Shown here: one piece after another, positions 53,966 to 61,368 of the stretch | Layout of the letters: every line of letters starts with the position of its first letter | How positions within the stretch are numbered: position 1 is the stretch's first letter | Source of the DNA: Tenacibaculum pacificus | Lineage (GTDB): Bacteria; Bacteroidota; Bacteroidia; Flavobacteriales; Flavobacteriaceae | Reading direction: 5' to 3' | DNA length: 64,000 nt | NCBI RefSeq assembly: GCF_027941775.1 | Contig: NZ_CP115917.1 | Coordinates: forward strand, 1,687,001 to 1,751,000 | Notes under the pieces: generated by a model | The model's input: the letters and a program-made list of their open reading frames with translations, nothing else | Database searches by the model: none | What the model was told of the DNA's origin: nothing | Position numbers and translations under genes: made by a program

Positions 53966-55552
53966 TTATTCTTGTATAAAATGTGAGTTCACTAATTGAA
54001 GAACACTTTCTACAGTTGGTAATTTAGCAACTTGTACATTTTCAAAATGTTTTCTTGCTTCTTTTGCGGTACTTTCACCAATACAAAAAGCCACTTTATC
54101 AGTGGTGTTTTCTTGCATATAACTTTCAACTGTCGATGGACTATAAAATAAAACACCATTTATAGTATCATCAACTTTAGATGAACTAAGTGTTGTTTTA
54201 TAAGCCTCTACTTCGTTTACTGTAATTCCGTTTTCGTTTAAAGTATTTGGTAAAGTATCTAAACGTAAATCACTACAAAAATAAGTAGCTGATTGTCCTT
54301 TTATTTCAGTAGATAAATAAGCAGCTAATTTTGTAGCATTTCTTTCAGACTTTACTACTTTCCCGATTCTTTGCTCAATTAACTTTTTGGTTCTACGCCC
54401 AACACAATAAATATTTTTGAAATTTAATTCTTCCGAAGTAAATGAATTTGTAATTGCTTCTACACCATTTTGACTAGTGATAATTACATTTTCGATTTCA
54501 TTTTTAACCACTTTAGGCGCTATTCTATTAAAACGAATTTTAATAAAATCACTATCTGCTACATCAATAGATGAATCAACTAATTCCTTTTGAATTTCAG
54601 ATAATTTTTTGGTAGAATAAATAGCGAAATCTTTCTTTTCAACTACATTCTTTTCCATTAATTCTTTACCTCCTCTGTTGATTACATAATCAGCACAATC
54701 TTTTGCTAAAAAACGATGACGTCCTACTTTCGCATTTTTTGTTACTGATATTTTCTTTTTACCATCTTCACTTAATAATAAACCTTTAAAGTTTATTTCT
54801 TCAGTTTTAGGATCAACATAAGCTATAGCTCCTATTGGCGCAGTACAACCACCTTCTAATAAGTTTAAAAACTCACGTTCAATACCTACACAAAGTTGTG
54901 TTTCGTAATGATTTAATTGCTCACAAGCATCTTTAGAAAAGTCATTATCTCCTAAAACAGTAATCATAATAGCACCTTGAGCTGGTGCAGGAATCATCCA
55001 AGAAAGATTAATTGCTCCTTCTGGTCTTTTTCCTAATCTTTCTAATCCTGCGGCAGCGAAAATAGCACCGTCCCAATCATTTTCTTCTAATTTCTCTAAA
55101 CGCGTATTTACGTTTCCTCGTAAACCAACTACTTCACGCGTAGGATAACGATTTAACCACTGTGCTCTTCTACGTAAACTACCCGTTGCAATAACACCAT
55201 TTGGCTGTCCAAAAAACTCTTCGTTGTCTTTTAACACTAAAATATCATTGTAATTAGCACGTTTTAAAACAGCTCCTTGAATAATTCCTTCAGGTAAAAC
55301 AGTAGGAACATCTTTTAAAGAATGTACTGCAATATCAATCTCACCACTTAACATGGCAAGATCTAAATTTTTAGTAAAAACGCCTGTAATTCCTAATTCA
55401 CGCAAAGGCGTATCTAAATCAATATCTCCTGTCGATTTAATTGGAACTATCTCACATTCATATTCTAATTCCTCTAATTCTTTACGAACTTTGTTTGCTT
55501 GCCACATAGCCAATTGGCTATCTCGTGTACCTATTTTAATTGTCTTCTGCAT
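53966..55552 (-). CDS. hemCD: Porphobilinogen deaminase fused to uroporphyrinogen-III synthase
   Basis: The 528-residue protein is about 220 residues longer than a normal HemC. Residues 1-300 are the deaminase: I-G-T-R-D-S-Q-L-A-M-W-Q-A, A-T-G-S-L-R-R-R-A-Q-W, and the dipyrromethane cysteine in L-E-G-G-C-T-A-P-I-G. From about residue 310 the sequence is HemD-like (I-I-T-S-Q-N-G-V-E-A-I, and V-L-F-Y-S-P-S-T-V-E-S-Y). The frame is continuous, so this looks like a true bifunctional enzyme giving uroporphyrinogen III from porphobilinogen. It overlaps hemA by 17 bases. Confidence 0.93.
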   Translation of the reverse strand: MQKTIKIGTRDSQLAMWQANKVRKELEELEYECEIVPIKSTGDIDLDTPLRELGITGVFTKNLDLAMLSGEIDIAVHSLKDVPTVLPEGIIQGAVLKRANYNDILVLKDNEEFFGQPNGVIATGSLRRRAQWLNRYPTREVVGLRGNVNTRLEKLEENDWDGAIFAAAGLERLGKRPEGAINLSWMIPAPAQGAIMITVLGDNDFSKDACEQLNHYETQLCVGIEREFLNLLEGGCTAPIGAIAYVDPKTEEINFKGLLLSEDGKKKISVTKNAKVGRHRFLAKDCADYVINRGGKELMEKNVVEKKDFAIYSTKKLSEIQKELVDSSIDVADSDFIKIRFNRIAPKVVKNEIENVIITSQNGVEAITNSFTSEELNFKNIYCVGRRTKKLIEQRIGKVVKSERNATKLAAYLSTEIKGQSATYFCSDLRLDTLPNTLNENGITVNEVEAYKTTLSSSKVDDTINGVLFYSPSTVESYMQENTTDKVAFCIGESTAKEARKHFENVQVAKLPTVESVLQLVNSHFIQE

Positions 55553-57902: not shown

Positions 57903-58416
57903 ATGAAACAATTAACTCATTACGACATCGAAAATAAGCAACAAACATTCCCAATAACTATTGTTTGTGATGCTATAAGAACTCCTGAAAATATTGGAAT
58001 GTGTTTTCGCATTGCTGAAAGTTTTGGTGTTCAGAAAATATTTTTACACTGAAAACTCGCCTAGCATCGAAAATAGAAATGTAAAACGTACAGCTAGAAA
58101 TACCATTACCCAAATTGAACACGAAGTTTATACTGATTTCAATGAAGTTATTAATCGATTAAAAAAAGAAGGAAATACTATTATAGGTATTGAAGTTGCT
58201 GATAAAAGTGTCGCACTTCAGAATTTCGATTTTTCATCAAAAGAAAAAATAGTACTACTTTTAGGAAGTGAAAGAAACGGCATAGAAAACATTAATAGTG
58301 TTGATGCCACTGTTGCTATACCAATGTACGGACGCAACTCATCAATGAATGTAATTCATAGTTTAAGCATTGCTTTATACGAAACAACAAATCAATTAAA
58401 TAAAAATTATAAATAG
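57903..58416 (+). CDS. SpoU-family RNA methyltransferase, frame broken by one inserted base
   Basis: ATG 57903 follows the AraC stop codon directly. The first frame has the SpoU motif 1 (V-C-D-A-I-R-T-P-E-N-I-G-M-C-F-R-I-A-E-S-F-G) and ends F-L-H then TGA at 58050. Removing one base continues E-N-S-P-S-I-E-N-R-N-V-K-R-T-A-R-N-T. Motif 2 (L-L-L-G-S-E-R-N-G-I) and motif 3 (I-P-M-Y-G-R-N-S-S-M-N-V-I-H-S-L-S-I-A) follow. The repaired length is 170 residues. The site reads CACTGAA. The family methylates ribose in tRNA or rRNA; the target is unknown. Confidence 0.85.
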
Positions 58417-58482: not shown

Positions 58483-59490
58483 ATGAAAGGAGCTTTATTA
58501 GTAAACTTAGGATCACCTGAAAGTACAGATCCAAAGGATGTTAAAAAATATTTAGGTGAATTTTTAATGGACGAACGTGTAATTGATGTTCCTTATTGGT
58601 TTCGTTCATTTTTAGTCAAAGGAATTATTTTAAACACACGTCCTAAAAAATCGGCGGCAGCTTACAAAAAGATCTGGTGGAAAGACGGTTCTCCTTTAAT
58701 TGTATTATCAGAAAGATTACAAAAAAAGGTTCAAGAAAAAACTGAATTACCTGTTGCTTTAGCTATGCGATACGGTACAATGACCATCAAAAAAGGATTA
58801 CAAGAATTACATGATAAAGGTGTTACCGAAGTTATGTTAATTCCTTTATATCCTCAATTTGCAATGGCTACTACTGAAACTATCGTTGTTTTAGCCGAAG
58901 AATTAAGAAAAGAGTTTTTTCCTGATATGAAAATTACCGATGTTCCTGCTTTTTATCAAAAACCAGAATACATCAAAGCTTTATCAAATAGTATTAAAGA
59001 TTATTTAGCGGATAAAGATTATGACCATATATTATTCTCTTATCACGGAGTTCCTGAGCGTCATATTCGTAAATCTGACATTACAAAAAGCCATTGTAAA
59101 ATAGATGGAAGTTGTTGTAATACGCCATCAAAAGCACATGAATTTTGTTATCGTCATCAATGTTTTCAAACAACAAAAAATGTAATATCAGAATTAGGTT
59201 TAGATGAAAATACGGTTTCAACCTCTTTTCAATCTCGTTTAGGAGTTGATCCTTGGCTACAACCTTACACAGACAGAACTATTGTTAGTAAAGCTGAAAA
59301 AGATGGTATTAAAAAACTTGCTATTGTAACACCTGCTTTTGTTTCTGATTGTTTAGAAACTTTAGAAGAAATTGCAATGGAAGGTAAAGAAGAATTTTTA
59401 GAAGCTGGTGGTGAAGAATTCTATACAGTACCTTGCATTAACGATAATGAAGAATGGGTTGCTGTTTTAGCAGGATGGATTAACAACTGA
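58483..59490 (+). CDS. hemH: Ferrochelatase
   Basis: The 335-residue enzyme inserts ferrous iron into protoporphyrin IX. It starts G-A-L-L-V-N-L-G-S-P and has the active-site His in F-S-Y-H-G-V-P-E-R-H. It also has a cysteine-containing stretch D-G-S-C-C-N-T and F-C-Y-R-H-Q-C-F, and the C-terminal V-S-D-C-L-E-T-L-E-E-I. It lies in the plus arm of the haem locus between the SpoU gene and the LipL32-like gene. Confidence 0.96.
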   Translation: MKGALLVNLGSPESTDPKDVKKYLGEFLMDERVIDVPYWFRSFLVKGIILNTRPKKSAAAYKKIWWKDGSPLIVLSERLQKKVQEKTELPVALAMRYGTMTIKKGLQELHDKGVTEVMLIPLYPQFAMATTETIVVLAEELRKEFFPDMKITDVPAFYQKPEYIKALSNSIKDYLADKDYDHILFSYHGVPERHIRKSDITKSHCKIDGSCCNTPSKAHEFCYRHQCFQTTKNVISELGLDENTVSTSFQSRLGVDPWLQPYTDRTIVSKAEKDGIKKLAIVTPAFVSDCLETLEEIAMEGKEEFLEAGGEEFYTVPCINDNEEWVAVLAGWINN

Positions 59491-59530: not shown

Positions 59531-59538
59531 TATATTCG
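59531..59538 (+). promoter_or_regulatory. Candidate -7 box (TATATTCG)
   Basis: This near match to TAnnTTTG lies 25 bases before ATG 59564 and over the upstream GTG 59528, which argues for the later start of the LipL32-like gene. Confidence 0.4.
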
Positions 59539-59563: not shown

Positions 59564-60253
59564 ATGAAAAATTTAAAAAAAATTGCTGCAGTAGTTGCTA
59601 TTGCTGCTGTATCTGTAGGAAGTATTAGTGCTCAAAAGAAAGTTGGAACTTTTGGAGGTTTAACTCAAAAAGATCTTGGTTTCAAAAAAATTAGAGTACC
59701 TTATACTGATGTAGTTTCTTACAAAGGTTTTGTAAAGCCAGGTAACGAAGACGAAGTTAAAGACGGAAAGAAATTCTATTATTTATATGTTTGGGTTCCT
59801 GCTGTTGCTCCTGAATTAGGTGTAAGAATGGTTTCTCCTATAGGAAAAAACAAACCTAAAAATGCAATTGTATCTTCTGATTTTGAAGCAAACAAAAAAT
59901 CTAAAGATTATTTTGACACTTACATTACTTTAGAACGTTCAGATATTTTTACTAAAGGATCTGTTACTGAAGGTAAAGTTAAAAATGCAAACTGGCATAC
60001 CCTTGCTAAAAATGATGATAGTAGTGAAATGCCTAAATTACCTAGTGGATCTAAGTATAACTCATTATTAAGATATAAAAGTGAAACTGGAAATCCTTTA
60101 AAAGCTATTACTACTGGTTTATACAGAATAGGTTTTACAACTTATAAAAAAGGAGAAGTAAAAGGTACATTTTTAGCTCAAATTGCAGCGCCTGTAAAAT
60201 TACCAGGAGTTCTTGTTGCTAAGTCTATTGCTGAATTAAAAAAGCAAATGTAA
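59564..60253 (+). CDS. LipL32-family secreted surface protein
   Basis: The 229-residue protein has a signal peptide (A-V-V-A-I-A-A-V-S-V-G-S-I-S-A-Q) but no lipobox cysteine. The mature part closely follows LipL32, the major outer-membrane lipoprotein of pathogenic Leptospira: G-F-V-K-P-G, Y-Y-L-Y-V-W-V-P-A-V, L-G-V-R-M-V-S-P-I-G, Y-F-D-T-Y-I, K-Y-N-S-L-L-R, and G-L-Y-R-I-G-F-T-T-Y-K-K-G-E-V-K-G. The Asp-rich calcium loop is shortened to K-N-D-D-S-S-E. ATG 59564 is preferred to GTG 59528, which overlaps the -7 box. The role is unknown. It sits between hemH and hemJ. Confidence 0.85.
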   Translation: MKNLKKIAAVVAIAAVSVGSISAQKKVGTFGGLTQKDLGFKKIRVPYTDVVSYKGFVKPGNEDEVKDGKKFYYLYVWVPAVAPELGVRMVSPIGKNKPKNAIVSSDFEANKKSKDYFDTYITLERSDIFTKGSVTEGKVKNANWHTLAKNDDSSEMPKLPSGSKYNSLLRYKSETGNPLKAITTGLYRIGFTTYKKGEVKGTFLAQIAAPVKLPGVLVAKSIAELKKQM

Positions 60254-60279
60254 TTTTTTATTTTAAAAGCATTAAATTT

Positions 60280-60319
60280 GAGGTCTTAAAACATAAAATT
60301 TTAAGACCTCATTTTTTTT
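60280..60319 (+). terminator. Terminator of the LipL32-like gene
   Basis: GAGGTCTTAAAA and its complement flank a 7-base loop, followed by a T8 run. Confidence 0.85.
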
Positions 60320-60322
60320 ATT

Positions 60323-60952
60323 ATGGATTTTTTATACATTAAAGCTTTACATATTATTTTTATTGTCACTTGGTTTGCTGGCTTATTTTATATTGGTCGT
60401 TTATTTATTTATCACGTAGAGGCAGAAAAAAAAGACGAACCTGCCAAATCAATTTTACAAACACAATATAAGTTAATGTCAAAACGTTTATGGTATATAA
60501 TTACCTGGCCGTCATTATTTTTAGCTAGTTTTTTTGCCTTTTGGATGCTTTGGATAAATCCTATCTATTTAGAAATGCCTTGGATGCATATTAAATTATC
60601 ATTTGTTTTAGCCTTGTATTTTTATCACGGATTTTGTCATAAAATATATAAAGAATTACAACGTGATGAAATTAATTACACACCAACAAAGTTGAGGATT
60701 TTTAATGAAGCTCCAACAGTTATTTTATTTGCAGTTGTTTTTTTAGTTGTTTTAAAAGACAGTCTTAATTGGATTTGGGGAGTTGTAGGTATTATACTTT
60801 TTGGAGTATTACTTATGATTGGTATTCGTTTCTACAAAAAATTAAGAGCCAAAAAATCTTGGGATAAACAAGAAAAAGACTTAACGAAAGAAGATAAAAA
60901 ATTAGATAATAAATTCTACTTTCGCAACTATAAAACCCCGATTATATTATGA
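60323..60952 (+). CDS. hemJ: Protoporphyrinogen oxidase HemJ
   Basis: The 209-residue protein has four or five transmembrane segments and the HemJ (UPF0093) residues: the His in K-A-L-H-I-I-F-I-V-T-W-F-A-G near the N terminus and the Lys in W-M-H-I-K-L-S-F. It oxidises protoporphyrinogen IX, completing the pathway between HemF and HemH. It ends in an unusual highly charged tail (K-K-S-W-D-K-Q-E-K-D-L-T-K-E-D). Its stop codon overlaps the next ATG (ATGA). Confidence 0.92.
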   Translation: MDFLYIKALHIIFIVTWFAGLFYIGRLFIYHVEAEKKDEPAKSILQTQYKLMSKRLWYIITWPSLFLASFFAFWMLWINPIYLEMPWMHIKLSFVLALYFYHGFCHKIYKELQRDEINYTPTKLRIFNEAPTVILFAVVFLVVLKDSLNWIWGVVGIILFGVLLMIGIRFYKKLRAKKSWDKQEKDLTKEDKKLDNKFYFRNYKTPIIL

Positions 60953-61368
60953 AAAAATTATTCTTATTAATTATTACAGCTATTTTAGTAATTTCACGCG
61001 AATCTAAAAGCGATGAATTACCAAATAATCCTGAAGAACCAGAAAATACTAAAGATTTAATTATAGGTACTTGGAAACTTATTCAAAAAAATGGAGAAAA
61101 AATAACTGATAGTTGTGAAAAGAAAGATACGTATATCTTTAACGAAGATACCTCTTATACTTTTGATGATTACAATACAATAGATGGTTCTTGTAGTAAA
61201 AACGAATCAAAATCATTCAAAGGTATTTGGCTTAACAACAATAATAAAACATACAATATCAGAATACATGGATATACTGGTAATGGTGCAGACTATAATA
61301 TAACCTTTACTCAAAGTAACCAATACTTAACCTTTGAAAACAACGGTTTAACCTACGAAAGACAATAA
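60949..61368 (+). CDS. Lipocalin-like small secreted protein with mutated lipobox
   Basis: The 139-residue protein has an N-terminal hydrophobic segment (L-F-L-L-I-I-T-A-I-L-V-I-S) followed by Arg-Glu-Ser where a lipoprotein would have Cys. Arg is CGC, one T-to-C change from TGC. The remaining domain (I-I-G-T-W-K-L-I-Q-K-N-G, F-N-E-D-T-S-Y-T-F, and L-T-F-E-N-N-G) is the lipocalin-like fold common in flavobacterial lipoproteins. It overlaps hemJ by four bases. The ligand is unknown. Confidence 0.78.
   Translation: MKKLFLLIITAILVISRESKSDELPNNPEEPENTKDLIIGTWKLIQKNGEKITDSCEKKDTYIFNEDTSYTFDDYNTIDGSCSKNESKSFKGIWLNNNNKTYNIRIHGYTGNGADYNITFTQSNQYLTFENNGLTYERQ

Follow-up and report, generated by a model that had tools for sequence, protein, structure and literature searches.

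A LipL32-family protein of Tenacibaculum pacificus that keeps the five calcium-ligand residues of LipL32 and has no lipid anchor

A stretch of 64,000 nucleotides from Tenacibaculum pacificus (contig NZ_CP115917.1, positions 1,687,001 to 1,751,000; hereafter the window) carries a gene of the LipL32 family, named for the lipoprotein LipL32, the best-known surface protein of Leptospira. Our favoured reading, to which we give a probability of about 0.5, is that its product is a cell-envelope binding protein, exported and held by calcium; it is a family member with all five calcium-ligand residues and no anchor. Of the findings, the absence of an anchor and the constancy of the calcium site deserve to be retained; two ideas from an earlier annotation, that such proteins are rare and that this one is connected with haem, fall.

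59564..60253, plus strand: LipL32-family protein of 229 residues; predicted mature part from Q24, 206 residues, 22.9 kDa, isoelectric point (pI) 9.7

Homology to LipL32 had been suggested in a first-pass annotation made from the DNA alone, and it was borne out by both profile and fold. The match to the LipL32 family profile, PF12103, was significant at 262.7 bits (curated cut-off, 25) and covered profile positions 1-178 of 179. Comparison of the predicted structure with LipL32 crystal structures, the check that the annotation had proposed, found the LipL32 jelly roll. A first structure model, built from 12 sequences (mean predicted local distance difference test [pLDDT] score, 77.5; template modelling [TM] score to LipL32, 0.64), was superseded by a model built from 85 sequences. 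Membership of the protein in the LipL32 family is therefore well supported, by sequence and predicted fold. It is a family member outside LipL32 proper, as its score against the equivalog model NF038394 was 123.4 bits, below the cut-off of 300. The gene is the single family copy in the whole T. pacificus genome, and the closest named relatives of its product are found in T. finnmarkense (94% and 92% protein identity), T. dicentrarchi (93%), and T. piscium (83%). A codon index was also tried as a sign of high expression and was rejected: the gene ranked second among the 53 open reading frames of the window, yet the index was uninformative because the reference genes averaged 0.725, below the window mean of 0.737. 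Several frames in the stretch used as reference do not encode ribosomal proteins, and two of these lie on the opposite strand.

The calcium cluster of LipL32 is described as Asp132, Thr133, Asp164, Asp165, and Tyr178 (PMC8951592), and the numbering of the 272-residue Leptospira protein P0121 agrees with these published ligands. In the alignment to LipL32, all five positions are identical in the Tenacibaculum protein, at the following codons.

59915..59920, plus strand: D118 and T119, aligned to LipL32 calcium ligands D132 and T133
60014..60019, plus strand: D151 and D152, aligned to LipL32 calcium ligands D164 and D165
60056..60058, plus strand: Y165, aligned to LipL32 calcium ligand Y178

In a set of homologues (the P set) picked by shared words and score, not by calcium motifs, every one of the 172 proteins with at least 200 residues keeps the same five; three shorter proteins of this set were excluded. 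This count is quoted from the P set only, since rows L002-L025 of the locus collection had been picked by motifs that hold calcium residues, and the pattern used for the 74 loci described below holds two of them. Across the 206 core columns of the alignment, 27 matched P0121 in all 158 non-Leptospira rows, the five ligands among them. The first-pass annotation had described a short calcium-binding Asp cluster, and this wording misleads: adjacent acidic residues have indeed been lost, but none of the five ligand residues is missing. The mean number of acidic residues in the loop was 3.0 in the Tenacibaculum clade, compared with 7.1 in Leptospira-type and 8.6 in gamma-like proteins, both labels being based on rank ranges plus a few source names. 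The core is also basic, with a pI of 9.6 against a Leptospira-type median of 6.2 (range, 5.5 to 9.55) and a median of 8.6 for the Bacteroidota of the P set. By analogy with LipL32, and with good support, the calcium ion would stabilise the jelly roll.

The anchor presents the opposite picture. The annotation had noted an ordinary signal peptide in place of the lipobox, and the absence of the lipobox is supported.

59564..59632, plus strand: predicted signal peptide, residues 1-23, ending ..SISA before QKK; signal peptidase I type, no lipobox Cys; cleavage site placed by eye

No Cys occurs anywhere in the protein, and with it the lipobox with an acylated Cys that characterises LipL32 proper is absent; the A-Q-K type of ending is that of its relatives. 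In two larger Bacteroidota sets, Q followed by K, L, F, or S, and preceded by A, S, F, or V, was found near the cleavage site in 115/117 and 86/100 rows. A lipobox pattern, searched as a regular expression, matched all 14 Leptospira-type proteins and only 8 of the 158 others in the P set (4/120, 2/20, and 2/18 in the separate groups), as well as 6 of 109 rows from the loci. By eye, most of the non-Leptospira matches have their Cys within the hydrophobic stretch, followed by a signal peptidase I site, while P0156 and P0167 resemble true lipoboxes. These counts indicate that lipidation is a feature of the Leptospira branch and of a few others, and that the constant of the family, as sampled and aligned here, is probably the calcium site and not the anchor. 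The name "Lipl32 family lipoprotein" in NCBI records should therefore not be taken as a lipoprotein call in Bacteroidota. Export would, with good support, proceed through Sec and signal peptidase I, and the product would then be soluble in the periplasm or released.

The only gene-removal phenotype that we found outside Leptospira is a loss of attachment in Pseudoalteromonas tunicata. Removal of the PtlL32 gene is reported to lower attachment to Matrigel tenfold and to leave fewer cells on Ulva, with attachment to polystyrene unchanged (PMC4080168); the phenotype is cited again in PMC12153261. Because PtlL32 removal lowers attachment, we propose a matrix-binding role, in which a calcium-dependent envelope binding protein would help the cell to hold biological polymers of a host or algal matrix. 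This step is tentative, although attachment is the most likely benefit among those weighed. Two points count against a simple adhesin: the lipid anchor is missing, and LipL32 itself has been placed below the cell surface, with normal adherence described for the mutant (PMC3544172).

The main rival to attachment, for which we see a lesser but substantial chance, holds that the protein is not an adhesin but a periplasmic envelope-maintenance or stress protein, which protects or organises the envelope when a two-component system fires. The subsurface location of LipL32 agrees with it, and a signal peptidase I product without a sorting signal would most simply be periplasmic. Gene neighbourhoods in relatives also support it. 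The neighbourhood survey of Bacteroidota that the annotation had proposed covered 74 loci, 34 of them from Aquimarina and some of them two to a genome; they derive from the 80 best of 243 matches obtained by searching with two conserved peptide patterns, and gene calls were mechanical. It turned up a haem context in 5 loci only, and a different context was commoner. The recurring order was a TPR histidine kinase, a LuxR-type regulator, a 139-residue membrane-like protein without a Pfam or NCBIfam match (f1), in some loci a zinc-ribbon protein, a SIMPL protein, and the LipL32-family gene. In 43 of the 74 loci (26 from the 34 Aquimarina loci, plus 9 other named genera), the f1 gene was found no more than three genes upstream, on the same strand; SIMPL lay directly upstream in 22, and both two-component genes were present in 28; a Band 7 protein and DUF6620 were added in some Aquimarina loci. 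At the level of genomes, f1 was found in 10 of 16 carriers of the LipL32 family compared with 33 of 381 non-carriers (Fisher P = 4e-7 with relatedness ignored; the same 397-genome sample is assumed for both counts, and 3 of the 43 f1 matches are weak, with E above 1e-4). The two genes were within 0.9 kb of each other in 5 of the 16 carriers.

The window copy does not share this linkage, common as it is in relatives. We found f1 neither in the window genome nor beside the window gene. SIMPL was not detected in the window genome by a Pfam search whose misses are soft: four of the 10 genomes searched (G072, G090, G807, and G624) were positive, and a weak match in G497 was missed, while an earlier search, run without a positive control, had found it in 0 of 10. 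Four of the seven Tenacibaculum carriers have f1 (G012, G018, G061, and G090), never beside the LipL32-family gene but on other contigs, with the exception of one f1 copy in G012 that lies ~46 kb from a second LipL32-family gene on contig C27. Moreover, among 30 f1 loci of ~3.4 kb, only 5 contained the LipL32-family gene. Because the module genes (f1, SIMPL, and the two-component pair) also occur together in the absence of this gene, it is at most an accessory of the module. The link is thus real for relatives but accessory, and it does not bind the window copy. In its own right, the combination of two-component system, f1, and SIMPL is a recurring Flavobacteriaceae module, with or without a LipL32-family gene (loci L130-L159 and the carrier loci).

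The family is neither rare nor evenly spread. The first-pass view that few homologues exist outside Leptospira was not sustained, as the Tenacibaculum protein has 1255 homologues in total and the family occurs in 16 of 397 genomes of the Flavobacteriaceae. It occurs in 7 of 97 genomes of the genus, leaving 90 without it, and in 1 of 395 genomes of a phylum sample; each count includes the window's own genome, which is the sole carrier in the phylum sample. Relatives of LipL32 in marine bacteria were already known: in 2014, PMC4080168 tabulated eleven non-Leptospira carriers, including P. tunicata and four Bacteroidetes, and argued for horizontal transfer. The Tenacibaculum protein adds a member to a known family. 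No literature linking LipL32 with Tenacibaculum was found in a search that covered few subscription journals.

In the window, the gene stands between two haem biosynthesis genes, with a candidate promoter element and a terminator of its own.

58483..59490, plus strand: hemH, ferrochelatase, upstream neighbour
59531..59538, plus strand: candidate -7 box TATATTCG; aligned relatives read TATATTCG, TACATTTG, or TATATTTG
60279..60311, plus strand: intrinsic terminator, a stem-loop with a T run; 13-pair hairpin immediately before the hemJ start codon
60323..60952, plus strand: hemJ-type protoporphyrinogen oxidase (UPF0093), downstream neighbour

Both elements had been anticipated in the first-pass annotation. 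The promoter, called possible there, gains support from the conservation of the candidate box in relatives; TATATTCG is close to the Bacteroidota -7 consensus TAnnTTTG, while a -33 element was not established from the alignment, and a sigma-70 promoter scan gave 19 sites against 16.6 expected. The terminator was corroborated by its hairpin, its T run, and paired changes in relatives. A terminator scan is weak evidence alone (2 sites against 1.0 expected). In an alignment of seven sequences including the window (six distinct, all close relatives), 98.7% of cells were paired and three pairs were changed on both sides. The covariation score and the paired cells were reached by none of 500 shuffles, and the structure was better than slid versions of itself; the count of pairs changed on both sides was reached by 32 of 500 shuffles, and that of further pair types by all 500.

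This placement is shared by five of the seven Tenacibaculum carriers, two of which match metagenome-assembled records. When hemJ loci of the genus were examined (the best 30 of matches in 89 of 97 genomes), 26 of the 30 had hemH nearby without a LipL32-family gene, 3 had the gene, and 1 (L111) had no hemH; because of this, we regard the gene as an insert between hemH and hemJ in those five carriers. Where the gene is absent, the gap between the aligned ends of hemH and hemJ ranged from 17 to 357 bases, minus-strand gaps being computed by hand from coordinates, and this variation (L102, L105, L110, L113, L115, L116, L119, and L123, all without the gene) suggests that the junction may be a tolerant insertion place. 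Three further observations concern the surroundings. An RNA methyltransferase-like gene, named by eye (57903-58416, plus strand), is split into overlapping frames at 57903-58052 and 57979-58416; in four relatives (L026-L029), it is one open frame of 169-173 residues. HemC and HemD are fused in a single frame of 528 residues (53966-55552, minus strand; Porphobil_deam and HEM4 domains). A small lipocalin-like protein follows hemJ (60949-61368, plus strand), and three tandem copies of its family occur in the metagenome locus L030.

We consider it unlikely that the gene is a horizontally moving accessory without a strong function in its Tenacibaculum host, although several observations point that way. 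Its distribution is patchy in the samples given above. A joined hemH and hemJ tree rejected a single clade of carriers (approximately unbiased test, p-AU 0.0017), with two metagenome carriers apart from the rest, whereas the LipL32-family genes at hemH-hemJ form one clade (support, 88) with a homologous terminator; these trees come from short searches. Four genomes of the genus carry a separate LipL32-family clade, and two of these four have genes of both clades. In one T. finnmarkense locus (L028, 8001-8690), the gene is seemingly interrupted, with a match that spans 229 codons and an open reading frame of 141 residues, which suggests that some strains can do without the gene. On the other hand, the hemJ tree and the joined set force a second origin of carriers but the hemH tree alone does not, and plasmid and phage collections gave no match to the gene. 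The gene is also under purifying selection, and strongly so in near relatives: the ratio of nonsynonymous to synonymous substitution rates was 0.03-0.05 against T. dicentrarchi and T. finnmarkense, similar to that of hemH (one aligned codon of L028 being dropped), 0.23 against T. piscium, and 0.07-0.14 against metagenome genomes, all these values being rough because many synonymous distances are near 1. Either transfer or one old gain with repeated losses explains the trees; we favour transfer via recombination in the flanks.

A role in haem or iron handling, for which the annotation had taken the position between hemH and hemJ as a hint, was rejected as very improbable, although the arrangement recurs in five of the seven Tenacibaculum carriers. 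Haem neighbours are limited to 5 of 74 loci (all Tenacibaculum), 26 of 30 hemJ loci show hemH close by but no LipL32-family gene, and 90 of 97 genus genomes have no family member. The gene also comes with a terminator and a candidate promoter of its own, its product contains no Cys and only one His, which is unconserved among aligned relatives, and LipL32 is described as a calcium protein (PMC8951592). The hemH-hemJ junction would instead be a neutral landing place, with the haem genes no functional partner, and the haem link should be dropped for this gene.

Returning to the exported, calcium-held binding protein that we favour, a wider and rather speculative history can be proposed. LipL32 may be the lipidated branch of an old exported, calcium-held envelope family of marine bacteria, often accessory to the two-component/f1/SIMPL module in flavobacteria, to which Leptospira later added the anchor; the Tenacibaculum gene may have been freed from the module and spread between lineages as a promoter-gene-terminator cassette via recombination in hemH and hemJ. 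Should the calcium site rather than lipidation prove to be what the family keeps constant, its core function becomes approachable in harmless marine flavobacteria, with the conserved neighbourhood as a handle.

The protein can be set beside three known groups. With LipL32 of Leptospira interrogans (PDB 2wfk, 3frl, and 2zz8; NF038394), it has in common the predicted jelly roll over nearly the entire mature length, the strongest motifs, and all five calcium-ligand residues. In contrast to LipL32, it has no lipobox Cys, reaches 123 bits against the equivalog cut-off of 300, and has a poorer acidic loop (3.0 against 7.1) and a higher core pI (9.6 against a median of 6.2). Members annotated as "Lipl32 family lipoprotein" in Aquimarina, Formosa, Cellulophaga, Winogradskyella, Reichenbachiella, and Labilibaculum are 61-70% identical to it; like it, the Bacteroidota members have the A-Q-K type of signal-peptide end and the same calcium residues, and most have no match to the lipobox pattern. 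In many of these genera, the gene lies downstream of f1, SIMPL, and the two-component system, whereas the Tenacibaculum window copy stands alone between hemH and hemJ. PtlL32 of P. tunicata is likewise a LipL32-family protein from a marine bacterium that lives on surfaces (PMC4080168). Its branch is probably a different one, as Pseudoalteromonas and gamma-like proteins (proteins of the genus, PtlL32 not being picked by name) group with the Leptospira type, apart from the Bacteroidota.
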